Assembly: GCA_902780235.1 (NCBI GenBank)
Contig: CACZEL010000011.1
Location: 62,001-126,000, forward strand
Reading direction: 5' to 3'
DNA from: an uncultured Bacteroidales bacterium
GTDB taxonomy: Bacteria; Bacteroidota; Bacteroidia; Bacteroidales; Paludibacteraceae
DNA length: 64,000 nucleotides
The notes under the pieces: generated by a model
Told to the model about the DNA's origin: nothing
Database searches by the model: none
The model's input: the letters and a program-made list of their open reading frames with translations, nothing else
Shown: positions 11,894 through 28,809 of the stretch, piece after piece
Layout: each line of letters opens with the position of its first letter
How positions within the stretch are numbered: the first letter of the stretch is position 1
Made by a program: the position numbers and the translations under genes

Positions 11894-11965
11894 GCTTTTA
11901 GCTTTTGGCTATTGGCTTTTAGCTTTTTAAGCTAACGGCTAACAGCTAACGGCTAACAGCTAATT
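11894..11965. repeat. Heptanucleotide array of about ten units (GCTTTTA / GCTAACA)
   Basis: GCTTTTA, GCTTTTG, GCTATTG, GCTTTTA, a GCTTTTTAA spacer unit, then GCTAACG, GCTAACA, GCTAACG, GCTAACA, GCTAATT. It lies in the leader between the promoter at 12030-12060 and the bL21-bL27 start at 11877. The GCTAACA family recurs in coding DNA at 39285 and 51261. Confidence 0.9.
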
Positions 11966-12029: not shown

Positions 12030-12060
12030 CAAAATTACTACAATTTTCTGACATGACCAA
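12030..12060 (-). promoter_or_regulatory. Promoter of the bL21-bL27 gene
   Basis: Minus strand TTG at 12060-12058 (TTGGTCATGTC), 20 bp spacer, TAATTTTG at 12037-12030. The leader to the start codon is about 145 nt and contains the long heptanucleotide array. Confidence 0.85.
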
Positions 12061-12113: not shown

Positions 12114-13271
12114 TTATCGGTCTTGAATAGTACGATATTTGGCAAAAAACGGGTAGCGTTTCTTGGTCACACGGGAGGTGTTGGCCTGTACGTCATAAAG
12201 CCTTACAAACGTGCGTTCGGTAATCGGATATTGGTCTCGTTCCCTTACCGCACATTTCCCGTAATGCCATGTGCCCTCTTCATCGCATTGGAGGTAGCAT
12301 TCGCATTCCGCATACGTCTCCATCGGATAGGTGAGGAAAAGGTCGATACGCTTGCGCAAGGCTTCAATCTCTTTCGATTCAGTTGGCAGTTGACGTAACC
12401 AATGCAGGATCGTGATCAATTGGTAGAACGTAGCGCGGGACAGGTACGGCGCCTTACCCGTGAGGACATCCATGTCCACATTCAGACTGCCTTCTTCGTC
12501 CTCATCCTTGCTGTGACTGCCGTTATTGACGGTGTCAATCAACGAGTTATAGTTCGTCAGGATGTACGAAGGAACGATATCCGGTGACAACGCATGGAGG
12601 TCTTCCAACTGCCTTTGTGCCGCACGGATTGAATCGATATCGTCCGCGAAAAGCCCATGCTCGCGGGCATAAACCACTGCGTGTGCCAGCAGTTTGCGCA
12701 TCGCGTTGAAGACCGTGGTGTCGGTTCCGCTATTCGGGTCGTCCATTTTCTTGATGATATCGAACAGGCGAATAGCCGTTGCCTCGTCCTGCCAATCGTC
12801 CAGCACGCTGGCGAACCGTTCCCGCAAAGCGATGTTCCGCGAGTGTTTGGTCAGTTCGCGAATGTCGTTGATAAGCTGCTGCTGGTCCGTGTATTTGGAG
12901 TAATACTGCTTGCGGGTCCAATCGCGCATGGGAATGGCGTTCAGCAACGACTCGTCGTACCCCTCTGCAGAAGTAAAGACAAACCAAGGGATATGCCGGT
13001 CATCCTCTTCGCATCGACTCATCACGCGATAGGCATAATCGCGGAACGAATCGGTGGATTCACTCTCATCCGAACGGCGGATCTTGCAGTTGACATCCAA
13101 GATGACCGCATCACACCGGTTGATATTCGCCGGTACGTCCAACCATTGTACGCCGTCCACGTAATTATCCACGAAATAGACCTCCATACCTGCCGTATGA
13201 AGCCGCTCGACGAAATCTTCCCGCGGTGCTTCGTCGATCCAAAAAACGACTATATTGCGATTTTTTGACAT
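12114..13271 (-). CDS. Receiver-like signalling protein, last gene of the liv-kinase operon
   Basis: 385 residues. The first 130 or so read like a CheY-type receiver: strand NIVVFWIDE with the acidic pair D13-E14, strand DAVILDV with candidate phospho-acceptor D59, strand PWFVFTSA with T100/S101 and a Lys at 121 or 126. The remaining 250 residues are mainly helical, have no DNA-binding motif I can recognise, and end in a cluster of strands. The gene is 6 bp behind the pRiA4b-like gene. A receiver without an HTH output next to a histidine-kinase-like gene suggests protein-protein output. Recognition of the receiver is by motif spacing only. Confidence 0.55.
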   Translation of the reverse strand: MSKNRNIVVFWIDEAPREDFVERLHTAGMEVYFVDNYVDGVQWLDVPANINRCDAVILDVNCKIRRSDESESTDSFRDYAYRVMSRCEEDDRHIPWFVFTSAEGYDESLLNAIPMRDWTRKQYYSKYTDQQQLINDIRELTKHSRNIALRERFASVLDDWQDEATAIRLFDIIKKMDDPNSGTDTTVFNAMRKLLAHAVVYAREHGLFADDIDSIRAAQRQLEDLHALSPDIVPSYILTNYNSLIDTVNNGSHSKDEDEEGSLNVDMDVLTGKAPYLSRATFYQLITILHWLRQLPTESKEIEALRKRIDLFLTYPMETYAECECYLQCDEEGTWHYGKCAVRERDQYPITERTFVRLYDVQANTSRVTKKRYPFFAKYRTIQDR

Positions 13272-13277
13272 AGCTGT

Positions 13278-13685
13278 TTATTCGTCTTCTTCGTCGTTCG
13301 TTATCGCTATTAACTTGCAACCGATATGGTCATAATCCTGACCGTAAAGGATGTTTGCGCCCACTTGCGGGAAGAGTTCTTGAAGCGTATGCTGGTCCTC
13401 CGGGAAATAGGACTCTTTGTGGTAGATGGCACCCTTATGGTCGGGGTCGTCGGGGTCATCTCCCCCCATCCACAGCATGTTTAGATGATTTTCGATGACC
13501 TCATCATCCTGCATGAAGATGCGTTCCTGGTTGTCGATCATGAGATGGTCGCGCGAGCCGAGGGTGTATGGCAGACCCATCTCGCAACGTAACTCGCGGC
13601 AGAAATCCTCAATGGTCATCTCTTCCGGAATGATCATCTCGCCGGTCTCTCCGGTACGCGTATTTACTAATTCAAAATGATACAT
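13278..13685 (-). CDS. pRiA4b ORF-3-like acidic protein
   Basis: 135 residues, strongly acidic. The N-terminus (YHFELVNTRTGETGEMIIPEE then TIEDFCRELRCEMG) and the C-terminus (TLQELFPQVGANILYGQDYD then CKLIAI) resemble the plasmid pRiA4b ORF-3 fold, where a leucine-rich linker leads to a YEYDFGD-type strand. The molecular function of that family is not established. It sits 6 bp after the phosphoesterase gene and 6 bp before the receiver-like gene, so it is firmly part of the operon. It could be a small adaptor; the family call is tentative. Confidence 0.45.
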   Translation of the reverse strand: MYHFELVNTRTGETGEMIIPEEMTIEDFCRELRCEMGLPYTLGSRDHLMIDNQERIFMQDDEVIENHLNMLWMGGDDPDDPDHKGAIYHKESYFPEDQHTLQELFPQVGANILYGQDYDHIGCKLIAITNDEEDE

Positions 13686-13691
13686 AATATG

Positions 13692-14375
13692 TTATAATTG
13701 TAATGATTTCGTTGTTTTAAACAGACAGTCCACGCATATCAATCCGGGAGCGATCTTGGTGATGTCCTCTTGCGGCGTATGACCGAAGATCTGCGTGACG
13801 GCCGTGTCGGCAAACAGATTGTCTTGCGGCAGCACCCATGACCTAATCCAAAGGGGCGAATGCATCGGTGACTCCCCCCAATGGTCACCCTCCAGCGTCG
13901 CGTTGGGACTGAAGGTGAACGCCATCTTTTCCTTTTGCCAAAGCGCGTTGATACGTGCCGCTACTTCTTTCGCGCCCTCTCCGCGATATATATCTATATA
14001 ATGTTCGTACCACGTGCGCGTGACGCCTGCATGCGAAACGAGGATGTCATCGCCGATGGGGTAGGCAACGCCATAGAAGAGAGACGCCGTTTCTTCGAAC
14101 ATCCGCTGATAGACATGCACGTACTCTTTGCAACTGAACCGGCTGCGATAGTCCATGTCAAGGATGTAGTTCAAGTCATGATTGCCGTAGAGCAAGACCG
14201 TCTCCGGCCGTTGCTGCTTGAAAGCGATGATGTCCTCAAAATTAGCGATCACCTCATCTGCAGTCTGTCCGTCCTTCGAATCAAAATAGTCCCCGACGAA
14301 GACGTTAATGCCCTCCTCCTGCACGAGTTGTTTCCAACTCTCTTTCCCGTGTATGTCTCCGATGATGTTATGCAT
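13692..14375 (-). CDS. Calcineurin-like (PPP-type) metallophosphoesterase
   Basis: 227 residues with the full metallophosphoesterase motif set: GDIHG near residue 6, GDYFD near 29, GNHD near 64, SHAGV near 114 and GHT near 197. The arrangement is that of bacterial PPP serine/threonine phosphatases and ApaH-like enzymes, with two metal ions bound by the Asp, His and Asn residues. The substrate cannot be read from sequence; candidates are phosphoproteins or nucleotide products. It lies 3 bp after the gene for the SH3b/PARP-like membrane protein, so it may reverse a modification made within the same system. Confidence 0.85.
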   Translation of the reverse strand: MHNIIGDIHGKESWKQLVQEEGINVFVGDYFDSKDGQTADEVIANFEDIIAFKQQRPETVLLYGNHDLNYILDMDYRSRFSCKEYVHVYQRMFEETASLFYGVAYPIGDDILVSHAGVTRTWYEHYIDIYRGEGAKEVAARINALWQKEKMAFTFSPNATLEGDHWGESPMHSPLWIRSWVLPQDNLFADTAVTQIFGHTPQEDITKIAPGLICVDCLFKTTKSLQL

Positions 14376-14378
14376 GAT

Positions 14379-15899
14379 TTATTTGCTCAGCGTGTCCAAT
14401 AGGTCGTCGATTACCTGCTTACGGAAAAGCCAATGGGCCGGTCCGCCCGGAATGCGTTGCATGATGCCGTTGTGAATATAAATGGCATAAATAGGTCGGA
14501 TACGCCAACTCTCGTTATACTTGTTTTGGCGGTCATACAGACAGATCTCCCACCATTCCCCGTCTTCTCGCCACCATTCTCCGGTGACGTATCCGTTGTT
14601 CAAACCCCAGTTGGAAACGGGGATTCCACCCTTAGCTCCGGCGGATCTATATATATAGTCCGGCATAAGCACCGTATCAATCGTTTTTCCCGGTGTTACT
14701 CGGGCTGCAATAGCAGCTCCTTTTTGGTAGTTGATTAATGTCTTTCGGGAGATGCCAAAATAAATACCGCTTCCGGCATAATTACCGCCTCCGACATTCC
14801 ATATTCCGGATTTCCAACCGCTGGTACGTTCGCGATGCTTGTTACGATGCGGATCGCAGAGCATACTGTCGGCGTACTCAACAGCCGTTCCGTGAAACAG
14901 CGTCATGGCGGGGAAGATCGTGTCGATAACGGTCCATATGACACTCTCGATGGTCGTTAGCGATCCGTGCCAAAGCAGATATTTTATGACGCGTTTGGGC
15001 AGGTAGTAGAGCCAATCGACGAAATCAAGAGCTCCCTCCGTATTGTCGGAAGGAACAAACACTTCGACGATATAGTTCGACCATGCGTACAGGTTATACA
15101 GCCCTATGTTATAATAGACTGCATTGATGAACCGAAGAGGCGTCACCAAAATATAAAACGGGATCTGCAGGATGCCTAAAAAAGTCCGCATACCCGGTTT
15201 GGCGCTGTCCGGAATCGTGTTGTACTTCATCAGCGGTCGCCATGGTTTGGAGAGCCAGAACTGCAGCCAATTGAGCATAAAGAACGGAAACGAGACCACG
15301 AACCAAATCCAATAGAAGAGACCCGATGCATTGGCCCATCTGCTGGAATACGGATTGCTGGTGCTCTTGTAAATGATATACCCTCCGACGAGTATTTCCA
15401 ATCCCATCGTGACGACAGCGCCCGCTGTACCGTTATCAAAGAACATCCACCCGACCAAGGCTCCTATACCGCATATTATCAGCATCCATAGAGCCAATCC
15501 GGAGATGGCGTTGCTTACGAAAAGACCGATCGCGGCCACAATGGCTAAAATCTCCAAAATGACCTTGACGACACGATATAACTTATCCCAACCGGACACC
15601 TTTTTCGGCGCAGGACTCTTCTGCTTCTGAACCGGACCGACATAACTCAGATAACGGCTGTTGACATAATACCGTCCTCCGGCTCCGCTGATTGTCGCCC
15701 ATTGCCCGTTTTGACCGATCACCTCCACAACGTCCCCTTTGTGCAATTTATACACCACCGAGTAATACGTCCCCGGTCCCGATCGCACATTGAGCGTATT
15801 TGCCGTCACCACATACCGCTCTTGTCCGACAAGGGTACTCCCCCATGCCGCCACGAACAATAGAAGCAATATGACAAGTCGTCTGATCATACGATTCAA
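14379..15899 (-). CDS. SH3b-TM protein with PARP-like ADP-ribosyltransferase-type C-terminus
   Basis: 506 residues. A signal or anchor segment (residues 6-22) precedes a bacterial SH3 domain (30-87: TANTLNVRSGPG, GDVVEVIG, WATI). At least four hydrophobic segments follow (about 110-130, 136-153, 160-177, 194-212, possibly 242-262). The C-terminal region carries two signatures reminiscent of PARP/ART folds: TLFHGTA with H336 and the segment YAGSGIYFG (374-382) with Y380, followed by a helix start SRKT. The third catalytic position, usually Glu in PARPs, is not evident; the likely strand is RPIYAIYI (468-475). It abuts the multi-TM gene with no gap. If correct, it would be a membrane-tethered mono-ADP-ribosyltransferase or an inactive relative. 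Confidence 0.5.
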   Translation of the reverse strand: MNRMIRRLVILLLLFVAAWGSTLVGQERYVVTANTLNVRSGPGTYYSVVYKLHKGDVVEVIGQNGQWATISGAGGRYYVNSRYLSYVGPVQKQKSPAPKKVSGWDKLYRVVKVILEILAIVAAIGLFVSNAISGLALWMLIICGIGALVGWMFFDNGTAGAVVTMGLEILVGGYIIYKSTSNPYSSRWANASGLFYWIWFVVSFPFFMLNWLQFWLSKPWRPLMKYNTIPDSAKPGMRTFLGILQIPFYILVTPLRFINAVYYNIGLYNLYAWSNYIVEVFVPSDNTEGALDFVDWLYYLPKRVIKYLLWHGSLTTIESVIWTVIDTIFPAMTLFHGTAVEYADSMLCDPHRNKHRERTSGWKSGIWNVGGGNYAGSGIYFGISRKTLINYQKGAAIAARVTPGKTIDTVLMPDYIYRSAGAKGGIPVSNWGLNNGYVTGEWWREDGEWWEICLYDRQNKYNESWRIRPIYAIYIHNGIMQRIPGGPAHWLFRKQVIDDLLDTLSK

Positions 15900-17867
15900 C
15901 TACATATCGGTGATACTCTTCTCCTCGAAGATCATCTGGATGAATACACCAATGAACATCGCGAGGAAAGAGAATTGGATGAGATATTCAGGTATGACTG
16001 TTATCGTGCATGCTTCACTACCGCATAGGAACGGCCATAAAAAACTATCTTTGGTATGTTGTATTAGATCTAGACTCACAATATCAATAGCAAAGATACC
16101 GATAATCAGCGACATGGAGAAACTGATAAGCATGAGTTCCAATGCGCGACCAATTCGATTCCATGTGGAGATATTAGGCAACGCTTTATTACTTTCGTAA
16201 AGAAGGAAAGCCAATACCACAACGGATAAAATGACACCAATAGGTATAGATATGCGTTCCTTAAATAACTCATTACCAATCACCAACATAATCCAGGCCG
16301 TAGTAATAGATGCTACAAGTCTTGGCATGAATAGGTGGATGTTCTTTAATATATGAGTCTTAGGATGAATAGTTCTTAGTAGTAGAAATGATACGACAAT
16401 AAAGATTAATACCTTTAGTACAATGCCCCAAAAACATGCAAATGTATTGTAGAAAAATAGCAGACACCCCAAAAGCGCAAATATAGTGGTCAGCCGTACG
16501 CTTATAGAATATTCTCTTTTCCGTCTAGTATTCACCAAAATATCATCTATTCTTTCAATGGGATTATTCTTATAGAACTTTAAATAGATAGCTGCGGATA
16601 AGAATGCACCAGATGAAATTATGAAGAACAATGCTATCCATTTGGGTTTTTCCCAAAAATATGGACAAAATGAACAAGCAACAAATAACAAAAGAAGTCC
16701 GATAATAACATTGTTCATTCCTCGGAATACATGCATGCGGATAGTATCTACAAAATCATAACGTTGATAGAACCACTGGGAGATTTTAGTCTTGCGATTC
16801 TCTATGGCGGTATTGTCATTTGTTCCGATATAGTTACTTAGTTCTGCAGAATTCAAATAATGAATCTTTGTCTTGTTATCTGTTAGTTCTTCTTCCAAAG
16901 GAAAGACAACGCGAGACATCTCCTCTTCCGGATTGACGAACCAAGAGTCTTCGGATATATGAAATACATTTTTCTTTTTTCTATTCGGTTTGCTACTTGG
17001 TTGATTTTCGAACCAATCCGGGTTGAAGCAGAAATGTTTATCTGCAGCCGGAGTCATTATCGTTTCTACCCATTCTGTCTCTGCTCCATCAAATTGTTTT
17101 GCATAGAGGTTTTTTATAGACAACCTGTCGCCGGGATGATAGCATCTATTGCGTATTAATCTGCGATAATAATAATATTCCGACTTTTTGATAATGGAAG
17201 AGAAGAAGAAGTCAGCCATCAATCCCTCCTTCATTTGTTGATAATACTTGATTGCTTGAAAGACATCAGTATGCATGAGATCAAACATGAAATCAAGTAG
17301 TAACTTGCGGAGGAATTTGGTAACTTTTTCTTCGTTTTTTTCTGTGATAGTGATTAAATCATATTTCTTGTTTTTATCAAGAAGTCCCCAAATTGAAAGA
17401 GAAGAATACGAATCTTCATTGACCTTGCTATCCCTCAATGCTTGATAAAGATTATTAAATTTTTCCTTTTCTGAGTTCTCTGTGTCTTGCTTCAGGCTAT
17501 CTGTTTTATTTGTATATCTTCTTATAACTAAATCACATAAGTATCCATTTATAGGGAAAGGAGTGTTGTATATATGCTTGATTTTGGATGAGAGTGCATC
17601 TTGTTCGCCGGTCGTAAATGGCAAGTCTAAAATAACTTCTTCGAGGTGTTCTGGCCATGGTTTATTTTCCCTATCTTTTTCTTCAATCCGATCATAATAA
17701 TGCACGAAGAATATGACTCTATCATTAGAAATAGATAAGCGAACAGGATAAGACAAGCCTTCTCTTCCCGAAGAATAATCAGGAAGATCAATATAATCAT
17801 AAAAAGTTACACCGTCGACGACCTTTGATCGTTCTAAATCTAAACGAAAAAAACTACCGTTATTCAT
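15900..17867 (-). CDS. Multi-pass membrane protein with large soluble N-terminal domain, unknown
   Basis: 655 residues. Roughly the first 375 are soluble and rich in charged and aromatic residues, with no motif I recognise. From about residue 385 to the end there are around eight hydrophobic helices, the last one ending FLAMFIGVFIQMIFEEKS, a little like the end of small channel proteins. The stop overlaps nothing and the next gene starts at the adjacent base; its ATG overlaps the stop of the upstream receiver gene by one base (17867). The gene is visibly A+T-rich compared with 0-12 kb, consistent with transfer. Function unknown; it may be the membrane effector or sensor of the operon. Confidence 0.6.
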   Translation of the reverse strand: MNNGSFFRLDLERSKVVDGVTFYDYIDLPDYSSGREGLSYPVRLSISNDRVIFFVHYYDRIEEKDRENKPWPEHLEEVILDLPFTTGEQDALSSKIKHIYNTPFPINGYLCDLVIRRYTNKTDSLKQDTENSEKEKFNNLYQALRDSKVNEDSYSSLSIWGLLDKNKKYDLITITEKNEEKVTKFLRKLLLDFMFDLMHTDVFQAIKYYQQMKEGLMADFFFSSIIKKSEYYYYRRLIRNRCYHPGDRLSIKNLYAKQFDGAETEWVETIMTPAADKHFCFNPDWFENQPSSKPNRKKKNVFHISEDSWFVNPEEEMSRVVFPLEEELTDNKTKIHYLNSAELSNYIGTNDNTAIENRKTKISQWFYQRYDFVDTIRMHVFRGMNNVIIGLLLLFVACSFCPYFWEKPKWIALFFIISSGAFLSAAIYLKFYKNNPIERIDDILVNTRRKREYSISVRLTTIFALLGCLLFFYNTFACFWGIVLKVLIFIVVSFLLLRTIHPKTHILKNIHLFMPRLVASITTAWIMLVIGNELFKERISIPIGVILSVVVLAFLLYESNKALPNISTWNRIGRALELMLISFSMSLIIGIFAIDIVSLDLIQHTKDSFLWPFLCGSEACTITVIPEYLIQFSFLAMFIGVFIQMIFEEKSITDM

Positions 17868-19633
17868 TATGCCGACTTTAATGTAATTATATACTGTTCA
17901 ATATTACGCGAGAGTTCTGTTACTTCAGAAGCCAATTCGTTTTTGTGCGAAAAAGTTCTGGTGAAGAATTTGTACTCTTCCCATATCTCCGGCCATTGGC
18001 GTATCGTTCCAAAGGCTGTCAAGTGAATTAACTGCAAGAGGTGCTCCAACATGGCTCCCATATGCACCTTGTTCTCCAAAAAGCTATCCACCAAACGGGA
18101 CTGCCCTTTATCTTTCTTCAATAATGCATATTTATGATGCAAATCTAAGAACTCGTGATAGGTGTCGAAAGCACGTTCTCTAACAGCTTTGATTCTACCA
18201 TTAGAAACATCCTCCGGTTTCTCTTTGAAAATACAGTTTGTTATTTCTAGGATATGACTTTCCGATAAACTATTAATACCTGAATCTTCTAATCGATGCA
18301 ACATAACGCGTGAAAGATAGTATTGAAATAGATATGGCGTATTAGTAGGACAAGCACCTTCCGCTATATACCACTTATCTGTTGTCCTTCGCAAGCCCTC
18401 TGACCGTAGCCGCTCGCCTACAGCCGTTGTAAATGCGGAAATAAACATAAAAAATTGTTTACCGGAAGGACCGACTTGTATTAATGAAGGATCATCGTTA
18501 ATTCTCCTTAACAATTGATAGGCATATTCTCTTGGAGATTCATACTTATAATTTAAGACATCTTTATTTGTTTTTTTGTCTTTATTATTATGCTTGTCTT
18601 CTTCATTCATGCTATGTTTTCCTAATAGGTAATCAAGAAGAATAATATCATATTTATTCTCATTCAAAGCAGCGATAGCTTCCTTAATCGTTTGTACACC
18701 CCATATCTCAACATTACACTCTTTATCAAGATTAGTTTCATGTGCCTTATGAGAATTGAAAATCCTGAGACCTACAGATAATCCCATTTCTTGGATGGTA
18801 TTTTCTATAATTTTCAACTTGGAATTATCCTGAATGGGTAAACTTTCTTCTTTCTTTTTTGCAATGGTATTGCTCATGGATGTCCATGCATGATCATCTA
18901 CAAGTAAAAAGCGCCATTTGTATTTCTTGTCAATAATCTCTCTGTCAGCCTTCATCTCCCATTCAGAATGGAATAGAAACGTTGAAACATCGTGTGAATG
19001 ACCTCCGTCTCCGGCAATATACGATTGCTGAACTAATCTGGCATTTGCATCTGCATACTCTTTGGCTACTGCCAAATCATATATACCACGGTCTGTATAT
19101 TGCGTAATAGAATCAATAATCCACCTTAATTGTTCCTTTTCCTTTTCTTCTAAACCTGCAATTTGATAACTTAATTCGGAATCCTTTATTGGCATATTAA
19201 TTATTTGAAGTAAGAAGAAAAAGTTCCAAATGGAACTATCCATTATGCGTGCATAACGTGGAAAAAAGACATTGTATTTATCTGATTTTTCATCGGCTTG
19301 CAACGGCCACGCTGAAAAATGAATGATGGGGAGCATCTTCTTTCCGTCTTCGTGTGGATAGAATAGGGATTCTTGAGCAAAACAGTATGCGGGATTTATG
19401 GGCAGGCCATCCTTCTGGGATATATGTCGATTATTAAAAAATGGCATGCCTTCTTGAATATGGAGTATTGCTTTGTACTCTTTTTGCTGCTTTTCATCAG
19501 CATGAAATTCCATATCTTTTACTGATGAAAAGATAGGCTCTAAATTAGGCATGCATATCGGTTTTCCATCTTTAAAGAACGAAAACTTTTCAATATGCTT
19601 ATTGTTAATAATCCACTGAATAGTGAGTTTCAT
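17867..19633 (-). CDS. Large protein with central receiver-like domain
   Basis: 588 residues. The N-terminal 235 residues are not recognised. A receiver-like domain spans about 240-425: strand WRFLLVDDHAW gives the acidic pair D246-D247, strand YDIILLDYLLG gives candidate phospho-acceptor D334, and strand FFMFISAF gives S399. Between the first two strands there is an insertion of about 45 residues, and after D334 a charged loop of about 30 residues (HSMNEEDKHNNKDKKTNK). The last 150 residues are helical. It follows the 19653-20516 gene after 19 bp and overlaps the membrane-protein gene by one base. Together with the kinase-like neighbour it forms an atypical two-component pair. A+T-rich. Confidence 0.55.
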   Translation of the reverse strand: MKLTIQWIINNKHIEKFSFFKDGKPICMPNLEPIFSSVKDMEFHADEKQQKEYKAILHIQEGMPFFNNRHISQKDGLPINPAYCFAQESLFYPHEDGKKMLPIIHFSAWPLQADEKSDKYNVFFPRYARIMDSSIWNFFFLLQIINMPIKDSELSYQIAGLEEKEKEQLRWIIDSITQYTDRGIYDLAVAKEYADANARLVQQSYIAGDGGHSHDVSTFLFHSEWEMKADREIIDKKYKWRFLLVDDHAWTSMSNTIAKKKEESLPIQDNSKLKIIENTIQEMGLSVGLRIFNSHKAHETNLDKECNVEIWGVQTIKEAIAALNENKYDIILLDYLLGKHSMNEEDKHNNKDKKTNKDVLNYKYESPREYAYQLLRRINDDPSLIQVGPSGKQFFMFISAFTTAVGERLRSEGLRRTTDKWYIAEGACPTNTPYLFQYYLSRVMLHRLEDSGINSLSESHILEITNCIFKEKPEDVSNGRIKAVRERAFDTYHEFLDLHHKYALLKKDKGQSRLVDSFLENKVHMGAMLEHLLQLIHLTAFGTIRQWPEIWEEYKFFTRTFSHKNELASEVTELSRNIEQYIITLKSA

Positions 19634-19652
19634 ATGCTAAAAGTATAAAAAG

Positions 19653-20516
19653 TTATTTGTCGCTTTCATGTATAGCTCTCTCACGCAGAATCATGCGGTC
19701 TATCTCAGATACATAAGTTTGCATCTGTTGAAAACGAGTACTAATAAAATCGTTGAGCTCAGTATTGATATCAGCATTCTTTTGTGGTTTATTACCTACA
19801 ATTTTTGCAATTTTATTCTGAGTGTGATGGAAAAATACAATGCGGATCTCTAGTTCTTTATTTTCAATCCTACTGCATATAGTATTCCATGCTTCGTTGT
19901 CGGAACTACTAGCATCGTAAATATCTTTATATATGTAATGACTATTATCTTCCTTAGAAAGAATTGTTATGTCATCTTTACGAATAGATTTCCAATCTTC
20001 TACATCCTTATCGTGCAATACAAGTTGTATGGTAGTCGCTTCTTCGCATAATATCACGGCGATTCTGATTAATGTGGGTATCCATAAAGCACTGATATCT
20101 TCAAGGCTTAGACACTTAACCCCATACACATTCGGAATACCATCCAATTCGTAAATGTTATGTACTCCTTTTGAAATCTGTTCAAGCAAAGATTTATTAC
20201 AAGTAATATATGTATCCAAAAACTCCTTTCGCTTCTTTGCTGTATTGATGTTTTTTAAATTATTGATACTCCGGCTGATCTCCTTTTCGGTGAAGTTCCC
20301 GTTCTCGGCCCCAGTAGCGATGTCTGTCAAAAAATCTTTTGTGTGTTGTTCGCTATCAAGGACTTTTTCCTTTAGATATTCATCAAAGTTTTTCTCAATA
20401 AAGTAATTTGCAAGTAATTTATGGACAACTTCATTTGTTGCTATTGAAGCTTGTCCAAATAGTTCATCCTGTCCAAATCCCTTGCAAGAAAATATCGTGA
20501 CAATTTTTTTATTCAT
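19653..20516 (-). CDS. Unknown protein between kinase-like and receiver-like genes
   Basis: 287 residues from the chosen start MNKKIVTIFSCKG at 20516, whose ATG overlaps the last codons of the kinase-like gene by 8 bp. A start at 20570 exists but lies deep in that gene. The N-terminal strand IVTIFSCKGFGQ recalls the beginning of a nucleotide-binding or Rossmann-type fold but lacks a Walker motif. The rest is mixed helix and strand with a helical, charged C-terminus (FQQMQTYVSEIDRM). I do not recognise a family. Its fixed place between kinase-like and receiver-like genes suggests an adaptor or phosphotransfer role, which is inference only. Confidence 0.55.
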   Translation of the reverse strand: MNKKIVTIFSCKGFGQDELFGQASIATNEVVHKLLANYFIEKNFDEYLKEKVLDSEQHTKDFLTDIATGAENGNFTEKEISRSINNLKNINTAKKRKEFLDTYITCNKSLLEQISKGVHNIYELDGIPNVYGVKCLSLEDISALWIPTLIRIAVILCEEATTIQLVLHDKDVEDWKSIRKDDITILSKEDNSHYIYKDIYDASSSDNEAWNTICSRIENKELEIRIVFFHHTQNKIAKIVGNKPQKNADINTELNDFISTRFQQMQTYVSEIDRMILRERAIHESDK

Positions 20517-23500
20517 ATTTTGCATAATCCAATACTTGTATGAGTGAATATTTACAATCTTTTGTCGCATGTTCTATAGCCGAGAATTGAACAAAAGGCT
20601 GTTGTTGCGGCATATCTTCCTCTGAAGGTTTGGAGCGTCCGGAATGAATAATAAAGTTGGGTAAATACTCATAAGTCTTGGGAGTATTATCTTTATTTTT
20701 CTTATCTACAATCTCCTTGAGGAGAATTTTATTCTCCTTAACCATCAGTTCTTTAAAGATAGTTTTTGTGACTTCACATTTTGCTTTATCATTTTCTTCA
20801 TTATGAGTCTTTATACCGAAGCGTGAATATATCTTATCCAACAATCCCTGATGTATAGAGATATAGTTATATTGTTGTTTAAATGATGAATCTTTGAACT
20901 CCATTACAATTTGCTGGCTTGAGGGGTCAAAATTAATCGTTGCAACACAATCAAAGGTGTATGAGAATAGACTATCATTTGTGCTTTGTTTGCTTGAAGT
21001 GCAACCTACTAATATGAAACCATCTTGACCATCATCTACAATGGTGAAAATATCCACTAATCGTCCAGCGTTAAATGCAGTTAAATGATTGTTTGTAGTT
21101 GCTGTTTGTGCTGAGAATGTATGTGATGCTTCGGCTATGTAAGAAATTAACTCTTTACTATTAAGATTTTTAATGTCATCATAATCAATTTTGTTTTCAA
21201 TCAACATATCAATGGCATCATCAAGTGAGAGAGTGTTATGCTCTAATCCTTCTCTAATTGCATCTAACTGACTATTTGTAGTGGTAAATAAATTTTCGTC
21301 AACCTGATGTGTATTTCTGAAAATACGTTCATCAATTATTGCAACTTTTTGTTGGAGAGCAAACAAATGTCCATAATACCATTGTTCATCTAAAGGCTCC
21401 CTTCTGACAAGTCTGTCTGAAGAGTTGTCGCCGGTAATTGCATCTATGGATATAATACTACTATATCCTACTCCGGAATTCTTCTTATTCCAGTATGTTT
21501 GGTACTCGCTAAATGTGGCATGATGAGTTCGATAGGCGTATAGGGCAAAATTGTCATTATTGTCGCTTGCCCCAAATATTTTTATTTTAGGCCATGTCCC
21601 GCCCCTGCGAGTCGCCTCTTCATGCGCTTTTTGATCCCATATGTAAATATCAGGACCGTTCGTTGCATTTAGTTTTGTTTTTAATTGATATATGCGTGAT
21701 AGTATACGGTTTTCCATATCGCTGGAAGATAGTCCATCCAACGATTGGTCTTCTGACCATCCCAATAAACGGTTAGAAACATAGGGACGAATAGTATCAT
21801 ATAGCTCTGGAGGCACTAAAATATATCGATAACTATTCCGCTCTTTTATAATTTCTTCGATAGATTCAAACTTATGCCATTTTATCGGATCTTCTGATGC
21901 TAAAGCATCAAATTGAGTCGTATTCCCAATTCCTTGCAAATACCCTACGGTATGATCTTTTCTAATTGCAAAAATGTATCGAAGGTGATAATCTTGGGTT
22001 AACTCGACAGTTACTATAGGAGCAAGATGCCGTTTAGAATTGTCTTTTTTTATGCATCGGAATAGTTCTTCATTGGACTCTCCACGCATCCAAGCTGAAG
22101 AAATACGCAATTCCTTAATTCCTTTATTGGAATCTTTCATTCTTCCATCCGCTTCTATATAATCTTCTCCGATACCATAGGAGAGACGATTAGGAAGATC
22201 AAGATTTGATGAGTAATCTAAATTATCCGTAATGGTCATTAAATACAAATCATCAATATCTTCTGAATGATCATACAAATCGAATAGTTCCTTCCCGATA
22301 CGAATTGGTAACATCTGCTGCTCATAGGTAAGATTGGATAGATCTCCTCCTTTTATATATGCAGAAGAGGCTCCTTCCAAAATGGCACCATCTATCATGT
22401 CAAATTCAAAGCATAAATTTCTATCAGCGGATAATGAACGGCGATTACCATGCTTAGCTGCATTTCGTATGAGATTCTCAATAATGGAGAAAATCGCTTG
22501 TCGTCCTACAAGTCCTCCGGGAAGGCTGAAATTGATTTTTCGCATTTCCTTTAGAGCAGGATTGTCACTGTCACATTCATCAGGCTTCCTTCCGAAATGC
22601 GTTGTTTTTCCATCTTTATATGAGACATAACTGAATAGAATGTCATCGTGGGTCGTAAAATCAATATGATTATAGTTCTCTCTTGATAACCCCTCTGATT
22701 TAGCTATATAACTCAATAAGATATTCAATGGACGATTTTTTGTGTCATCTTTATGGCGTATGTATCGCAAATCTGGGTTTAATTCATCGTAAATCGCATC
22801 TTTCATGTTTACAGGTGCACTATACGGAATATAGTCCGTAGCAATTGTTGCTATATAGTCCTGTCGTTCTTGAAGGTATCCGATAAACTTTCCAAGGCCA
22901 ACTAAGAATGGGAACTCTACGTCTGTTACGCTTGTCGGCTTGTCTGCAGGATAGAAATTTTTGAGCACATCGTTCTGGGTGCTTGTTATTGCTGCTACGC
23001 TACCTAATTTCTGTTTTAAATATGCCATAACATGGCTACCGAGATTATGACTCATATTACGAGACATAATGGCAGCTTTTGCAGATTTTTCTGCAGCTAT
23101 TTTGCGGCGAAGATCCATTTCGGCGAGATAGCGGGACTTTAAAAGGAACAAGAAATAAACAATATCAAGACGTTTGGATATTGTCTTATCTAATACGTCT
23201 TCGTCGTTAAAGATAGCTAATGTGTTGGATAAGAAGCTTGTTCCGTTGGTTTCGGGATCATAATCCTCACCGGTTATCCAAACATAGATTTCTACTCCTT
23301 TAGAGTATCTTAGCGCTTTAATATTTTCTCGTAAAAATGTGTTAGGCTGATTTAACCAATTTTTAATAATCTCTTCATCAACGGTTTTATCATTCCCTTT
23401 GAGGTCTTTGCATGTTTTAACTTTTAGAGATTCAATTCTACCATCTTCATCCTGTACTTTGCATTCAAATTTAATCTCACTTATTTCTTTTTCTTTAATG

Positions 23501-23754
23501 AAAAAAGGAATATATAGTTTAACTTCTTCTGCGACCTTTTCGGTGTCGAAAGAATCTATTCCGAATTTTGATATAAAAGGAAGAATGTCAACGTCTCCTT
23601 TTAAACGAACATTGACGCCATAAATGCCTTTGACATTTTGGGGTTTTACCTCTACATAGTTATCTATGTCAATTTCATCCTTTAGTTTTTGGATGTCATT
23701 TGTCCGGTTGCAGATTCTTTCAACAACTTGTTCTTTGGATAGATATTGAGCCAT
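20509..23754 (-). CDS. Atypical histidine-kinase-like protein, 1081 residues
   Basis: Residues 1-205 form an unrecognised N-terminal domain. A dimerisation-like helix pair at about 205-265 carries SRNMSHNLGSHVM, with H236 as a possible phospho-accepting His. A GHKL ATPase pattern follows: N box IENLIRNAAKHGNR (425-438), G1-type TITDNLD (507-513) and a G2-like SNKGIKELR (542-550), with an unusually long N-to-G1 spacing. Residues 560-1081 contain no domain I recognise (a strand QQKVAIIDERIF lies in the middle). There are no transmembrane segments, so the protein should be cytoplasmic. It starts 10 bp after the periplasmic-binding-protein gene and is A+T-rich. It could alternatively be a GHKL ATPase without kinase activity. 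Confidence 0.6.
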   Translation of the reverse strand: MAQYLSKEQVVERICNRTNDIQKLKDEIDIDNYVEVKPQNVKGIYGVNVRLKGDVDILPFISKFGIDSFDTEKVAEEVKLYIPFFIKEKEISEIKFECKVQDEDGRIESLKVKTCKDLKGNDKTVDEEIIKNWLNQPNTFLRENIKALRYSKGVEIYVWITGEDYDPETNGTSFLSNTLAIFNDEDVLDKTISKRLDIVYFLFLLKSRYLAEMDLRRKIAAEKSAKAAIMSRNMSHNLGSHVMAYLKQKLGSVAAITSTQNDVLKNFYPADKPTSVTDVEFPFLVGLGKFIGYLQERQDYIATIATDYIPYSAPVNMKDAIYDELNPDLRYIRHKDDTKNRPLNILLSYIAKSEGLSRENYNHIDFTTHDDILFSYVSYKDGKTTHFGRKPDECDSDNPALKEMRKINFSLPGGLVGRQAIFSIIENLIRNAAKHGNRRSLSADRNLCFEFDMIDGAILEGASSAYIKGGDLSNLTYEQQMLPIRIGKELFDLYDHSEDIDDLYLMTITDNLDYSSNLDLPNRLSYGIGEDYIEADGRMKDSNKGIKELRISSAWMRGESNEELFRCIKKDNSKRHLAPIVTVELTQDYHLRYIFAIRKDHTVGYLQGIGNTTQFDALASEDPIKWHKFESIEEIIKERNSYRYILVPPELYDTIRPYVSNRLLGWSEDQSLDGLSSSDMENRILSRIYQLKTKLNATNGPDIYIWDQKAHEEATRRGGTWPKIKIFGASDNNDNFALYAYRTHHATFSEYQTYWNKKNSGVGYSSIISIDAITGDNSSDRLVRREPLDEQWYYGHLFALQQKVAIIDERIFRNTHQVDENLFTTTNSQLDAIREGLEHNTLSLDDAIDMLIENKIDYDDIKNLNSKELISYIAEASHTFSAQTATTNNHLTAFNAGRLVDIFTIVDDGQDGFILVGCTSSKQSTNDSLFSYTFDCVATINFDPSSQQIVMEFKDSSFKQQYNYISIHQGLLDKIYSRFGIKTHNEENDKAKCEVTKTIFKELMVKENKILLKEIVDKKNKDNTPKTYEYLPNFIIHSGRSKPSEEDMPQQQPFVQFSAIEHATKDCKYSLIQVLDYAKYE

Positions 23755-23764
23755 AAAAGTATGA

Positions 23765-24835
23765 TTATTGAAGTTTATGAACAGACATTTTCATTTCTCC
23801 GTTGCCGCGCGCATCAAAAGTGATGTCGCATGCAGCTGTTGCTATTGTGTTGTTACGAAGCCATTCGCGCTGAGCAGCGAGATCGTTTGCATCTTGAACA
23901 CCATTTCGTGCGGCATCTACCAGATAGGGAAGCATGTACGAGCAGGAGACATACGAGTTCGGAGCATTATGATACTTGTCTTGATATGCGACTGCGAACT
24001 CGTCTTTGATATCTACATCGGCATAATAGATAGTGATCTTGTCATTCTTGTTGTTGGCAGAGAAACTGACTGTTGATAAATTAACATCTCCAAACATGGT
24101 AATGTTGTCAAACTTTTTAACATAACTCATCTGGTTGGAGAAAGATGCCGGAGAAATACCAAATCCGTTAATAAAGACTCCATCACATACTTTTTCAGCC
24201 ATCTTGTTGACTGTATTCTTGAAATCAAAAGTACCTATGTCGTAGTTGTCTTGGAATGTGATTGAAGCACCCTCAGTTTTGGCTATGTTGTCGCAAAAAA
24301 CTTGCGTTGCCTGTAAGCAGGGAACAGTATTGAGCGTGATCGTCGCGAAGTTTTTCAAGCCGCACGAATCCACCATATACGATGCCGCAATATCTCCGAG
24401 CGCTTTGGCGCTAGGAAACACACGGAAGGCGCAATCCGTTACATCCAAAACGGTTTCATTATAATCCATGACGGTAAAATAGAGTATGTTTTTCTCTTTT
24501 GTCATAGGAGCAATTGCGGTTGCAAATTGTCCTCCGAAACCGATGATATATTTCACTCCTTGCATCTCTAATCTTTTGTAGCATGTGATGGCGGTAGCCG
24601 GATCGGATTGGCAATCCTCAAACAGGATCTCATACCGCGTGCCTTCTGTGCGGGCATTAAGTTCTTCAACGGCCATATTAAAACCGCTGATCCAATAGTC
24701 TGCCACCGCAGCACCGGCTCCGGTCATCGGACTTACCAGACCGATTTTAACTACGTCGTTCTTGCTCTGACCGCAACTTACTGCCATCATCACTATTGCT
24801 GCCAAAGCAAGCAATTTTAAAACTGATTTCTTCAT
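23765..24835 (-). CDS. Lipoprotein substrate-binding protein of a branched-chain amino acid-type ABC importer
   Basis: 356 residues. A lipoprotein signal (LLALAAIVMMAVSC, lipobox Cys near 21) is followed by the type I periplasmic binding fold of the LivJ group: VKIGLVSPMTGAGAAVADYWISG near residue 30 and FEDCQSDPATAITCYKRL near 70, then VKYIIGFGGQFATAIAPM. Ligands of this group range from branched-chain amino acids to urea, amides and aromatic acids, so the substrate cannot be named. Its gene comes after the permease and ATPase genes, between a methyltransferase and the kinase-like gene. That order fits a system in which uptake or ligand binding feeds the signalling proteins downstream. Confidence 0.85.
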   Translation of the reverse strand: MKKSVLKLLALAAIVMMAVSCGQSKNDVVKIGLVSPMTGAGAAVADYWISGFNMAVEELNARTEGTRYEILFEDCQSDPATAITCYKRLEMQGVKYIIGFGGQFATAIAPMTKEKNILYFTVMDYNETVLDVTDCAFRVFPSAKALGDIAASYMVDSCGLKNFATITLNTVPCLQATQVFCDNIAKTEGASITFQDNYDIGTFDFKNTVNKMAEKVCDGVFINGFGISPASFSNQMSYVKKFDNITMFGDVNLSTVSFSANNKNDKITIYYADVDIKDEFAVAYQDKYHNAPNSYVSCSYMLPYLVDAARNGVQDANDLAAQREWLRNNTIATAACDITFDARGNGEMKMSVHKLQ

Positions 24836-24840
24836 AATCT

Positions 24841-25476
24841 CTATTGTTTTTTTAGTATATAATATCGAATTTTTCGAGGGATGGAAAATGCATCAATCTG
24901 CAAGTTCTCCAGTGTGTTTACTTTAATCTCATATTCGTCCATCTGTTCTATCAATGCACGCATGTCGTTGAGAGGCCATGTCTTCTGCCCCGTAAAACGA
25001 GCGGTGTTTTTATCTTCTGCAATCACCTCATCTGTTTGGTCCCAACCTCCAATGATTAATAGACCTCCTTGTTTCAGCAATGCCGCAAAATCCTGCAGAA
25101 ACGTTTTCCATAGATCCGGCTCAATGTGATGAAAGAATGATGTCGCTACTATGATATCGTATTGCTTTTGATTCCGTTGTAACTCTTTCGGAGTCTCCAC
25201 GCAATAGATACCAATATCTTCTTTGGCGTATTTTTTCTTCAACCATGCAATCAGTTCATCAGAGATATCCGCCAAGTCCACTCGTGCCCCTTTTTTGAAA
25301 AAATGAAACGCCAATTCTCCGCTACCGCATCCATAATCCAATAGATCCAAGCCGTTCACATCAGATATGTACTTTTCAATGTTGGTCATATGCGCCCTGA
25401 CACAACTGTCGCTCATCCATGGAGCATCATAGATGTGTCGCCTATAAACCATATCCCAAAACTCTCTGGTATACAT
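24841..25476 (-). CDS. Class I SAM-dependent methyltransferase
   Basis: 211 residues. Motif I is DYGCGSGELAFHF near residue 46, preceded by LDLLDYG; the acidic end of strand 2 is RVDLADIS; the post-motif strand is YDIIVATSFFHHIEPD near 108, and LLIIGGWD near 143. This is the small-molecule Methyltransf_11/25 type. The substrate is unknown. It is located 9 bp after livF and 5 bp before the binding-protein gene, so it is co-expressed with the importer; modification of the imported compound or of a derived signal is possible. Confidence 0.85.
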   Translation of the reverse strand: MYTREFWDMVYRRHIYDAPWMSDSCVRAHMTNIEKYISDVNGLDLLDYGCGSGELAFHFFKKGARVDLADISDELIAWLKKKYAKEDIGIYCVETPKELQRNQKQYDIIVATSFFHHIEPDLWKTFLQDFAALLKQGGLLIIGGWDQTDEVIAEDKNTARFTGQKTWPLNDMRALIEQMDEYEIKVNTLENLQIDAFSIPRKIRYYILKKQ

Positions 25477-25485
25477 CTCGCTTTC

Positions 25486-26205
25486 CTATTGGCCAATGAC
25501 GTTAAACATAGTGGCTTCAATCTCTTTTAGTTCTCCGCGTTCAAACGTTTTCCCTATCGTCCCTTGTTGAATCAAAACGCAACTGTCGCAGAAATCCACA
25601 GCTCTTGATATATTTTGTTCTATCAGGATAATGGTCAGTGACATTTCTTCTCTTACTTTTTGAAGAAGATCATACATGCCGGCTACTGATTTTGGAGACA
25701 GACCTGCGCTAGGCTCATCGAGCACAACGATTTTGGGTAATGTGGCCAATGTCATCGCCAAAGCCAATTGATGACGTTGACCTCCGCTGAGGCGATCTGC
25801 CATGGTCCCCATCAGCCGTTCTTTGGTATCGTCTAAAATAGGGATGAGAGGGCGTAAACGCTCCATCTGCTCTTCAAAAGTATTCGCTGTGACCAAACGC
25901 ATATTATCCCATATCGAAAGGCTTTGGAATACTTGTCCTCCTTGAAACATCATCCGAATGCCGGCACGGGAGATGGCTTCCGCTGACAGATGGGTGATGT
26001 CGTTTCCTTCGTAAATCAATGTTCCGCTTCTATACGGTAGCATATTGACCAAAGCTTTCCCTAACGAAGACTTTCCGGATCCGTTAAGGCCCAAAATACC
26101 GACGGAAGCACCTTGCTTCACTTCCATCGATATCCCATGTAAGATATCTACATTGGGTACATAGCCTCCGGTAATGGTATCTATTTTCAGAATCGCATCA
26201 TTCAT
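25486..26205 (-). CDS. livF: ABC importer ATP-binding protein, LivF type
   Basis: 239 residues. Walker A GLNGSGKSSLGK near 40, signature LSGGQRHQLALAM near 139, Walker B IVVLDEPSAGLSP near 159 and the switch His after ILIEQN. The start overlaps the end of livG by 4 bp (ATGA), the usual coupling of these paired ATPases. It powers the LivH/LivM permease at the inner face of the cytoplasmic membrane. Livness of the annotation rests on pairing and order; the real substrate is unknown. Confidence 0.85.
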   Translation of the reverse strand: MNDAILKIDTITGGYVPNVDILHGISMEVKQGASVGILGLNGSGKSSLGKALVNMLPYRSGTLIYEGNDITHLSAEAISRAGIRMMFQGGQVFQSLSIWDNMRLVTANTFEEQMERLRPLIPILDDTKERLMGTMADRLSGGQRHQLALAMTLATLPKIVVLDEPSAGLSPKSVAGMYDLLQKVREEMSLTIILIEQNISRAVDFCDSCVLIQQGTIGKTFERGELKEIEATMFNVIGQ

Positions 26206-26987
26206 AATCCAAGATAACTGCTCCTTACAGCGGGATTGTCAATCACGGCATTCGTTTCTCCATATACGGCTATCTTTCCTTCGTCTAAAAATGCACACTT
26301 GGAGGCTACCTCTCTAACAAAATGCATATTATGCTCTATCATCAAAATGGTGAGGTTCTTATCTCTCGCCATCTCCGAAATGATGCGGGCAATAGTTTGG
26401 TTATATACGGGATTTACTCCGGCTGTCGGCTCATCCAGTAACAGCAACTCATTCTCGCCCATCAACAAACGGGCAATAGCAATCATTCGTTGCTCGCCGT
26501 AAGACAACTCACTTGCCGGATGATGAAGCATATCAACATATTTGCAGCCTTTGCCAAAGAGTGTCTCAAGTATATGTACGGCTAACTCCGTCTTCTCTGA
26601 TTCTTTCGCTTTAAGGAAACGGGGATACACAAGGTATGAGAATGGGAATTCTCCTGTCCGATCCGAAGATGCCATCAGCATATTCTCCAAAATGGTCAGA
26701 CTTCCCATTAACTGTTTCCCCTGAAAGAGCCTCCCGATACCGCATCTCGATATTTGGAAGGGGGCTAACTTTGAGAGATCTGTGTTTTTGAAGAGTACCT
26801 GTCCTGTATAATCTTTTTGAAAACCGGATATGATATTGAAGAGGGTAGTCTTGCCGGCACCATTACCGCCTATGAGCGCAGTGATCTCTCCTTCCTGCAC
26901 CCCAAGATTTACTCCGGAGAGAAGGTGAAAACGCTCTTTCCGAGCATTGGTAAAACTGAGTTGTATGTCCTTTAATTCTAAAATCAT
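26202..26987 (-). CDS. livG: ABC importer ATP-binding protein, LivG type
   Basis: 261 residues. Walker A GGNGAGKTTLFNIISG near 39, the LivG-typical FQGKQLMGSLTILENMLMA region near 90, signature LSYGEQRMIAIARLL near 157, Walker B LLLLDEPTAGVNP near 178, and the C-terminal EHNMHFV segment. The LivG-type insert between Walker A and signature is present. The start lies directly behind the livM stop and the end overlaps livF. Confidence 0.85.
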   Translation of the reverse strand: MILELKDIQLSFTNARKERFHLLSGVNLGVQEGEITALIGGNGAGKTTLFNIISGFQKDYTGQVLFKNTDLSKLAPFQISRCGIGRLFQGKQLMGSLTILENMLMASSDRTGEFPFSYLVYPRFLKAKESEKTELAVHILETLFGKGCKYVDMLHHPASELSYGEQRMIAIARLLMGENELLLLDEPTAGVNPVYNQTIARIISEMARDKNLTILMIEHNMHFVREVASKCAFLDEGKIAVYGETNAVIDNPAVRSSYLGL

Positions 26988-26988
26988 C

Positions 26989-27858
26989 TCACTTTATGAT
27001 TTCTTTGCCTCCCAAACCTTGTGGGCGGAAGTACATCACCAATACTAATGCCAAACCATAAATAATCTGCCGTAAGGGTGCCGCTATCGATTCGGGCATT
27101 CCGATAAATCGTAATACCTCAGGCAATATGACCACAAACAATGCACCTAAAATAGGACCTGCTATATTACCTGTTCCGCCAATGAATAATGCGCTGACGA
27201 TGAATAGACTTTCCAATAGCGTAAAACTGGTAGGGTCTATGTAGCTGGCGTAGGATGCATATAGCATACCGGCTAATCCCGCAAAAGCTGCAGAAATGAA
27301 GAATGCGGATCCTTTCAGGAAACTGACATCTCTTCCCAAGGCTTGCAGCGATTGTTCATCTGATCTCAATGAACGGAGAGCTCGTCCGTATGGGGATAAT
27401 TTCAGGCCGGCAAAGAGTGCCACCATGAGTAAAACGGCGATAAGAGATACTGCAAAATAGGCGTACACACCTTGCAGTTCCCAGATGCCCAACAGTTTCA
27501 ATGCCGGAATACCCGAAATGCCAAAGGGCCCGTTGGTGACGTCTATCCAGTTGTACAAGATCGTGTAAACGACCATTTGGAAACCCAGTGTTGCTAAAAT
27601 AAAATAATCTCCTTTGAGCTTGACAGAAGCCAATGTGATGATAATACTGCATAAACCGGACAAACCCATTACGCATAATGCAATAATGATAATCGGTAAT
27701 TCAAACTGCATCAAGAATAAAGTACCGATATAGGCTCCTATGCCATAAAAGGCCGCTTGACAAAGCGTCAACAAATTAGCCATGACAGTAACATTGGTAC
27801 TCAATACCAACATGATGTAGATATTGAGCATGAATGCAATATGTAGTATATACTCCAT
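26989..27858 (-). CDS. livM: ABC importer permease, LivM type
   Basis: 289 residues with about eight to nine hydrophobic helices and the LivM signature region GRALRSLRSDEQSLQALGRDVSFLK around residues 155-180 (EAA-like loop contacting the ATPases). The C-terminus ends LVMYFRPQGLGG, the usual end of this family. The first base of its ATG overlaps the stop of livH. Ligand specificity cannot be read. Confidence 0.85.
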   Translation of the reverse strand: MEYILHIAFMLNIYIMLVLSTNVTVMANLLTLCQAAFYGIGAYIGTLFLMQFELPIIIIALCVMGLSGLCSIIITLASVKLKGDYFILATLGFQMVVYTILYNWIDVTNGPFGISGIPALKLLGIWELQGVYAYFAVSLIAVLLMVALFAGLKLSPYGRALRSLRSDEQSLQALGRDVSFLKGSAFFISAAFAGLAGMLYASYASYIDPTSFTLLESLFIVSALFIGGTGNIAGPILGALFVVILPEVLRFIGMPESIAAPLRQIIYGLALVLVMYFRPQGLGGKEIIK

Positions 27859-28721
27859 TATACTGTCCGTTGTTTATAGCCCGCAAGTCCTTGAGGACGA
27901 ATGAATAAAAATGCTAGAAGGAGAATAAAGGTGATGGCATTCTGCCAACTGGTGGAGAAATGAATCAATACAAGACTCTGTATCAAGCCAAGTGTCAATC
28001 CTCCTAATACACATGCTTCTATTTTGCCTGTACCGCCGATAATCATTGCTACAATGGCAGTGATCAATACATTCATGCCCATATTAACATCCATACCCAC
28101 CTCTACAACATTCAAGCAAGAAGCTGCGGCAATAAAAAAGCCTCCGAGCAAAAATGCAAACGCGCGGATTCTTCGACTGTTATAGCCCAAACCGGCAAAC
28201 AATAATTCATCCTCACTGATCGCTTTGATCTTAAGTCCCGTCTGGGAACGCAAAAAGAATACGATGAATCCTATGATCAATACTAAACTGCATCCTACTT
28301 GGATAAGCTGAGGCTGGGACAAGGAGAATAAACCCACGTCATAAACGGCGTTAAATGTAGATGATACCGATTTGGGTTCATTGCCAAAGAACAAGGCTAA
28401 GAGATTGACAATGATAGTCATCACACCAATAGATGATACCAATGCAATGTTGTTGGAAGCCTTTTTGCGTTTGAGAGGTTGATAAACGAGCAAATCGATG
28501 GAGTAATTCAGACCCATGGATAATAGTAGCGATATCCCTCCCGCGAGGCACAGGGGCATATAGCCGGAGAGCCACCAGAACATGTAGGCGGCAAAGACAT
28601 AGATGCCGGCGGCAGCGATATGAAACACCTTGGTCGTGTTATATACCAATGCAAAACCTATCGCTAAAAGCGAGTAGAGCAGACCGGTAATAAGACCATT
28701 TATGATGAATTGCAACAGCAT
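27858..28721 (-). CDS. livH: ABC importer permease, LivH type
   Basis: 287 residues, polytopic, beginning LQFIINGLITGLLYSLLAIGFALVYNTTKVFHIA, which is the recognisable LivH N-terminus in which the family's N-F-A motif is replaced by a V-F-H variant. The conserved loop (TGLKIKAISEDELLFAGLGYNSRRIRAFAF) and the end FIRPQGL are present. It is the first gene of a fourteen-gene minus-strand run ending at 12114, all with gaps below 20 bp or overlaps, behind the promoter at 28760-28790. Confidence 0.85.
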   Translation of the reverse strand: MLLQFIINGLITGLLYSLLAIGFALVYNTTKVFHIAAAGIYVFAAYMFWWLSGYMPLCLAGGISLLLSMGLNYSIDLLVYQPLKRKKASNNIALVSSIGVMTIIVNLLALFFGNEPKSVSSTFNAVYDVGLFSLSQPQLIQVGCSLVLIIGFIVFFLRSQTGLKIKAISEDELLFAGLGYNSRRIRAFAFLLGGFFIAAASCLNVVEVGMDVNMGMNVLITAIVAMIIGGTGKIEACVLGGLTLGLIQSLVLIHFSTSWQNAITFILLLAFLFIRPQGLAGYKQRTV

Positions 28722-28759
28722 TTTTAGACTCTCAAATTCCTCGGTTTTTCATTCAGCGT

Positions 28760-28790
28760 GCAAAATTACAACTTTTTTTCCAAATACGCA
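28760..28790 (-). promoter_or_regulatory. Promoter of the liv-kinase operon
   Basis: Minus strand TTG at 28790-28788 (TTGCGTATTTG), 20 bp spacer, TAATTTTG at 28767-28760. This is the only promoter of the shared type I can see before the run of genes 28721-12114. Confidence 0.8.
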
Positions 28791-28809
28791 AGCGCACGCG
28801 CATTTTTCT

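Follow-up and report, generated by a model that had tools for sequence, protein, structure and literature searches.

The 64,000-nucleotide window analysed here, from an uncultured Bacteroidales bacterium of the Paludibacteraceae (contig CACZEL010000011.1, positions 62,001 to 126,000), carries a run of ten minus-strand genes, from livH to the gene for protein P0010, in which an ATP-binding cassette (ABC) importer is linked to a soluble atypical histidine kinase and a receiver protein. These genes are predicted to form one phosphosignalling cassette, in which an imported ligand would act on the kinase, the kinase on the receiver, and the receiver on an effector, and we give this reading a probability of about one half. 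The linkage of the genes, their recurrence in relatives, the motifs of the kinase and receiver, and the exchange of inputs and outputs from locus to locus can be read directly from the genomes.

The kinase, P0007, is rare within its own family. It is present in 2 of 200 family genomes, that of the window (G000) and that of a genus-mate, Paludibacteraceae bacterium Red_deer_4_mag_9 (G173, record CAJOIZ010000001.1), and a contig scan with two N-terminal peptide patterns recovered this red-deer relative alone. Wider kinase profiles matched 3 of 395 phylum genomes, 6 of 375 genomes of the window's class, one IMG/VR contig and, in another class, 4 genomes out of 197. A second draw from that other class overlaps the first, gave the same matches and is not independent of it; a larger set from the class gave 7 of 391, the four included. 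The matches fall in 15 distinct places, 13 of which were examined. The two left out are G1156, a weak match in a frame of 249 amino acids, and G758 (locus L058), rejected as a cassette on the grounds of a weak kinase match and, by eye, glycosyltransferase-like genes. Upstream sequence is visible at 12 of the 13 loci, G1278 being cut inside the kinase, and 10 of these 12 testable loci encode importer proteins and one or more small-molecule enzymes ahead of the kinase. The view of the earlier note that importer and kinase/receiver genes belong together is supported, as the association is seen again in further families of the same phylum, in another class and on the IMG/VR contig.

Around this one kinase family the importer, the enzyme and the output proteins are all interchangeable; that is, the arrangement is modular. 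Seven loci have a Liv-type importer (G000, G173, G318, G507, G752, G836 and G879), with the four-gene set found at G318, G507, G836 and G879 by tblastn with P0001-P0004, and only the Liv binding protein, at a contig edge, in G752. Two loci have a Dpp-like importer, namely G725 (Pfam SBP_bac_5 and BPD_transp_1) and the IMG/VR locus L051 (by eye), and G1014 has an NMT1/Tau-like importer. The enzymes are no less varied, with a methyltransferase at G000, G173 and G1014, a PALP protein plus methyltransferase at G318, a PALP protein at G879, a B12-radical SAM protein at G507, radical SAM proteins at G725, L051 (by eye) and G836, and PTPS with GTP cyclohydrolase I at G752. The radical SAM protein of G836 carries SPASM, and the locus has in addition a gene of 285 amino acids lacking a Pfam match. 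On the output side, the receiver protein of G318 has weak matches to DUF4145 (0.0016) and HEPN (0.013), a receiver-like protein of G879 has an asparaginase domain (Pfam), and G1278 encodes a protein with Response_reg and sigma54-activator domains that has a homologue in G1227. Locus L051 (IMGVR_UViG_3300036820_000579) is a viral-labelled contig with a Dpp-like importer, a radical SAM-like gene and the kinase; it may represent a mobile element, or bacterial DNA with the wrong label.

P0007 (20509-23754; all window genes given here with coordinates lie on the minus strand) is not a kinase of the classical membrane-bound type, having neither a HisKA/HATPase_c match nor a membrane span. Its hydropathy profile has no membrane window; of 13 relatives, 4 have one such window or a pair. 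An N-terminal region precedes the H-box, NMSHNLGSH, which begins at residue 233; the N-box, ENLIRNAAKH, begins at residue 426, and the C-terminal IHQG and HSGR motifs are common to relatives. The N-box is present at all 13 loci, and every one of the 12 kinases that are not cut has the H-box, recognised by pattern in 11 and by eye in G879; on these two motifs P0007 is predicted to be a histidine kinase in the wide sense. P0007 gave no meaningful match in Pfam, NCBIfam or PADLOC, and nothing at E<=1 in a phmmer search of the PDB, and tblastn with P0007, P0024 and P0028 gave no match in 72,556 plasmid records.

The receiver protein P0009 (17867-19633) carries the motifs LLVDD and IILLDYLL, and both it and P0014, further along the operon, have the acidic pair and phospho-acceptor aspartate motifs of a receiver domain. 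The Pfam family cREC_REC matches P0009 below the curated cut-off, and Response_reg scores above the cut-off only in relatives (P0026, P0030 and L055:3-1136). Homologues of P0009 are found in G968 and G1227 (hhalign 99.6%, 1.6e-24), and receivers are present at 13 of 13 loci by Pfam or motif, in G752 partly by eye and in G879 through the acceptor-aspartate strand only. Between kinase and receiver lies the gene for P0008 (19653-20570), a small, fast-evolving protein of no recognised fold that none of the family libraries searched could match. An open reading frame (ORF) of 161-388 amino acids follows the kinase at all 13 loci, that of L051 having been read from a translated frame.

The last gene of the cassette encodes P0010 (15900-17867), which on hydropathy consists of a globular domain followed by a C-terminal multi-transmembrane region of eight hydrophobic windows (seven in G173), and is the presumed effector. 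Its PADLOC matches are weak (Mem_01, 0.0036; JetB1, 0.068), and hhalign detected no similarity to P0031, the membrane protein of G507. Where P0010 is multi-transmembrane, the G968 counterpart shows an HSGHGG...NGC pattern, which by eye may be CHAT-like, with Pfam reporting nothing there. Neither a DNA-binding nor a transcription-factor output was seen in the window.

The input half of the cassette begins with the LivH-type permease P0001 (27858-28721) and the LivM-type permease P0002 (26989-27858), which are 95% and 98% identical, respectively, in G173, and both of which have homologues in G318, G507, G836 and G879. The ATPases that follow are P0003, of LivG type (26202-26987; Walker A GGNGAGKT), with homologues in G173 and the same four genomes, and P0004, of LivF type (25486-26205; Walker A GLNGSGKS), the identities of P0001-P0004 being read from sequence and Walker motifs. 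At E<=1e-60, two among 101 genus genomes have the LivF-type gene, G000 and G173, and both also have the kinase. P0005 (24841-25476) is an S-adenosylmethionine (SAM)-dependent methyltransferase (Pfam Methyltransf_25, 3e-15) and the small-molecule enzyme of the cassette; its PADLOC match, mad2 (2e-15), is confined to the methyltransferase region. The solute-binding lipoprotein P0006 (23765-24835) is of Liv type (Pfam Peripla_BP_6, 1e-31). The importer is akin to Liv/HAAT-type importers in its Peripla_BP_6 binding protein and in a gene set that reads as LivHMGF-like, but differs in sharing an operon-like arrangement with a cytosolic kinase and receiver and in being rare in the genus.

Comparison of G000 with G173 reveals sharp changes in identity along the cassette. 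Identity is 91-98% for the importer, methyltransferase and binding protein and 89-91% for kinase residues 1-225 (0.71-0.93 at four-fold sites there), but only 23-72% for kinase residues 301-975 and 30% for P0008. P0009 is 24-62% identical over residues 1-450 and 91-100% over residues 451-588, and P0010 reaches 80-95% over residues 526-655. The SerRS used for comparison is 76% identical; serS lies ~1 kb beyond the operon in the window, and on a different contig from the cassette in G173. This mosaic suggests that blocks have been exchanged between lineages by recombination, one such block being the input genes together with the first part of the kinase. At four-fold sites, however, the importer genes reach an identity of only 0.62-0.74, so that protein-level selection may explain part of their likeness.

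If the ten genes do act together, the ABC importer and P0006 would import a particular small molecule, which the cassette enzyme, here P0005, would either convert or supplement with a partner molecule. The resulting internal pool would then be sensed by soluble P0007 through its large, variable N-terminal region, and the kinase would autophosphorylate at the H-box histidine and pass the phosphate to the receiver of P0009, with P0008 assisting, possibly as a relay or adaptor. Finally, P0009 would control P0010, which would alter or damage the cell membrane. We infer this flow of ligand, phosphotransfer and effector action from the order and motifs of the genes.

Several observations weigh against the single-cassette reading. 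The kinase function is itself a prediction, and P0007, P0024 and P0028 have no Pfam HisKA/HATPase_c match. P0008-like proteins could not be aligned between locus groups with hhalign, and P0010 resembles its counterparts in G968 and G1227 over 65 columns only (59%, 9e-5). Structure models built from two-row alignments were useless, with predicted local distance difference test (pLDDT) values of 37.9 for P0008 and 38.5 for P0010. In addition, the flanks read at G968 and G1227 contain no importer; these two loci have genes resembling sigma54-type response regulators, which fit ordinary regulation.

As to what the cassette is for, a conflict response, whether against invaders or by dormancy, is more likely than ordinary nutrient control, though only slightly. 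This lean is due to defence neighbours at three loci and to the patchy occurrence of the kinase in the family. Strong matches to defence models were found for 4 of 20 flanking ORFs, the models being type I restriction endonuclease (G318), AbiEii (G836), and HerA and SIR2 (G1014); the ORFs were hand-chosen, without control flanks, and the scan amounts to a lean, not a test. Against the conflict response, 3 of the 20 gave weaker generic matches (AAA, sigma54, regulator) and 13 gave none at 1e-5. A PADLOC scan of P0005-P0014 recognised no known anti-phage system, its matches being the weak ones to P0010 and P0012 and the one confined to the methyltransferase region of P0005. A more specific proposal, tentative and on balance unlikely, is a new class of immune or dormancy system in which the importer and enzyme of the operon hold a guarded small-molecule pool, and an upset of this pool, or of the membrane, during infection would signal through the soluble kinase and receivers to a swappable effector. 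Under such an arrangement, importer, enzyme and effector would be swapped between lineages like cartridges.

The strongest alternative is ordinary metabolite-sensing two-component regulation, whereby the kinase measures flux through a pathway and the receivers adjust metabolism or transcription, with no role in conflict. It keeps an appreciable minority share of the probability because the input genes are all metabolic and because sigma54-type regulator-like genes stand alongside the kinase in G1278, G1227 and G968. Right behind the G879 cassette (L053:12604-19870), moreover, the receiver-like/asparaginase gene is followed by an Amidase-family (GatA-like) gene and, by eye, a GatB-like gene. 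However, a single pathway would hardly be expected to combine one kinase family with so many enzymes and with importers of three unrelated families, the window offers a multi-transmembrane protein in place of a DNA-binding output, and the patchy distribution and defence neighbours fit regulation poorly. Sensing of self or kin, in which the enzyme makes a diffusible molecule, the importer retrieves it and the kinase reads density or kinship, is improbable, for although enzyme and importer occur together at 10 of 10 importer-bearing loci and both vary, none of these loci has a recognisable exporter, and the enzymes lack a common chemistry.

The cassette lies at the head of a longer run of 14 ORFs in the window's ORF list, all on the minus strand (12114-28721), in a genome assembly of 2.28 Mb in 58 contigs that is 78.6% complete. 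Spacing ranges from overlaps, such as that between the reading frames of P0007 and P0008, up to 19 bp, the widest gap separating P0008 from P0009. A motif at 28761-28791 (minus strand), predicted to work as the promoter, matches TTG[CG]-N17..21-TAnnTTTG, which we take to be a Bacteroidales-type promoter pattern. The pattern scan found no other minus-strand match before 12030-12060, behind the last gene, although a looser TTTG pattern has two matches inside the operon, at 16654 and 16439. The guanine-plus-cytosine content is 0.33-0.40 across ~16-24 kb, as against 0.41-0.52 on either side. The tight packing of 14 genes, the single promoter-like motif at their head and the A+T-richer segment at 15.9-24 kb, all described in the earlier note, thus hold. 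Downstream of the operon, the motif at 12030-12060 may serve the next genes, and at 11931-11957 the short sequence GTTAGC is repeated four times at a spacing of 7 bp.

Beyond P0010 the run continues with P0011 (14379-15899), which has SH3b (Pfam), membrane spans and a strongly conserved C-terminal domain whose HGT and GxGIYF motifs are kept in 3 of 3 homologues; P0012 (13692-14375), a PPP/calcineurin-type phosphoesterase (Pfam Metallophos, 6e-11; PADLOC PDC-S10, 0.024); the small protein P0013 (13278-13685); and the receiver-like P0014 (12114-13271), recognised by motifs. Beyond SH3b, neither P0011 nor its three homologues has a Pfam or PDB sequence match. P0011 is rejected as a PARP, since these searches gave no catalytic domain and the likeness is one of motifs, and P0013 is rejected as pRiA4b for want of sequence support in Pfam. 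Among the domain labels given earlier, Pfam upholds four, those of the methyltransferase, the Liv-type binding protein, the calcineurin-type phosphoesterase and SH3b. Motifs are what identifies the kinase and the two receivers, and 'PARP-like' and 'pRiA4b-like' find no backing in Pfam.

The genes from livH to P0010 (15900-28721) are therefore, as far as sequence comparison goes, the cassette proper, and P0011-P0014 an accessory block, because the latter are found apart in relatives and are absent from 11 distant kinase loci (tblastn, E<=1e-3). In the stretches read, G150 has P0011 but neither the kinase nor P0012-P0014, and G269, likewise lacking the kinase, has P0011 accompanied by P0013 only. 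P0014 is found in 3 of 41 genus genomes, G000 included, and G211 and G215 have a P0014-type gene beside genes for a low-molecular-weight phosphatase and a protein kinase/AAA protein, with no importer or kinase of the cassette in the stretches read. These genes look like a second phosphosignalling island without a name (G211, L064:6594-9562; G215, L065:8268-14757, the latter also with a large AAA gene), and P0011-P0014 perhaps come from another such island. Phosphatase and large AAA genes of the families in these islands also lie upstream of livH in G173.

That all fourteen genes form one functional unit, as the earlier note had drawn them, is accordingly not supported, and is improbable. The single promoter-like motif and tight spacing speak for it, as does the fact that both G000 and G173 have P0012-, P0013- and P0014-like genes adjoining the cassette. 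The order differs, however, with P0014- and P0012-like genes upstream of livH in G173 and a P0013-like gene after the cassette, and P0011 is there a decayed stub. The separate occurrence of P0011, P0013 and P0014 in G150, G269, G211 and G215, and the lack of the whole block at the distant loci, argue against one unit. Separate occurrence of gene blocks in relatives is also what the earlier note had named as refuting its reading, and for P0011-P0014 it is observed.

Among known systems, the defensive two-component system Detocs, which has interchangeable effectors, is alike in using two-component phosphosignalling, there as defence. Detocs (DtcABC) is described as a three-gene system that degrades ATP (PMC11249213). 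It differs in having no importer or solute enzyme, the gene sets being contrasted by inspection; the PADLOC 2023 library, in which the presence of Detocs models was not checked, gave nothing on P0007-P0009. CuaD of Ruminiclostridium is, by the title of PMC10384115, a solute-binding protein with a signalling role, and to that extent is alike in tying such a protein to signalling. As far as that title goes, the present cassette differs in its soluble kinase of an unrecognised family, its built-in importer and enzyme, and the lack of a transcription-factor output in the window. Conflict systems dependent on nucleoside triphosphates share swappable effectors and sporadic receiver and radical SAM domains, but for their vWA-associated effectors no histidine kinase domains are reported, and the main text lacks the term 'ABC transporter' (PMC7159879). 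A figure legend in PMC13092281 names HATPase and REC for a predicted system.

A cassette of importer plus histidine kinase is undescribed in the titles and abstract openings among the matches listed, which lie mostly outside subscription papers and bioRxiv preprints. Two-component sensing normally relies on a membrane sensor, and most often on a DNA-binding output. The cassette would represent a variant of such signalling not described before, and a role in conflict, if it proves real, would justify placing it in a separate class. The combination of one kinase family with three kinds of ABC importer, several enzymes and several outputs suggests a general device for passing information from a solute to a phosphorelay. 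Should defence prove to be the output, nutrient transport and metabolism would be the means by which some bacteria monitor infection.

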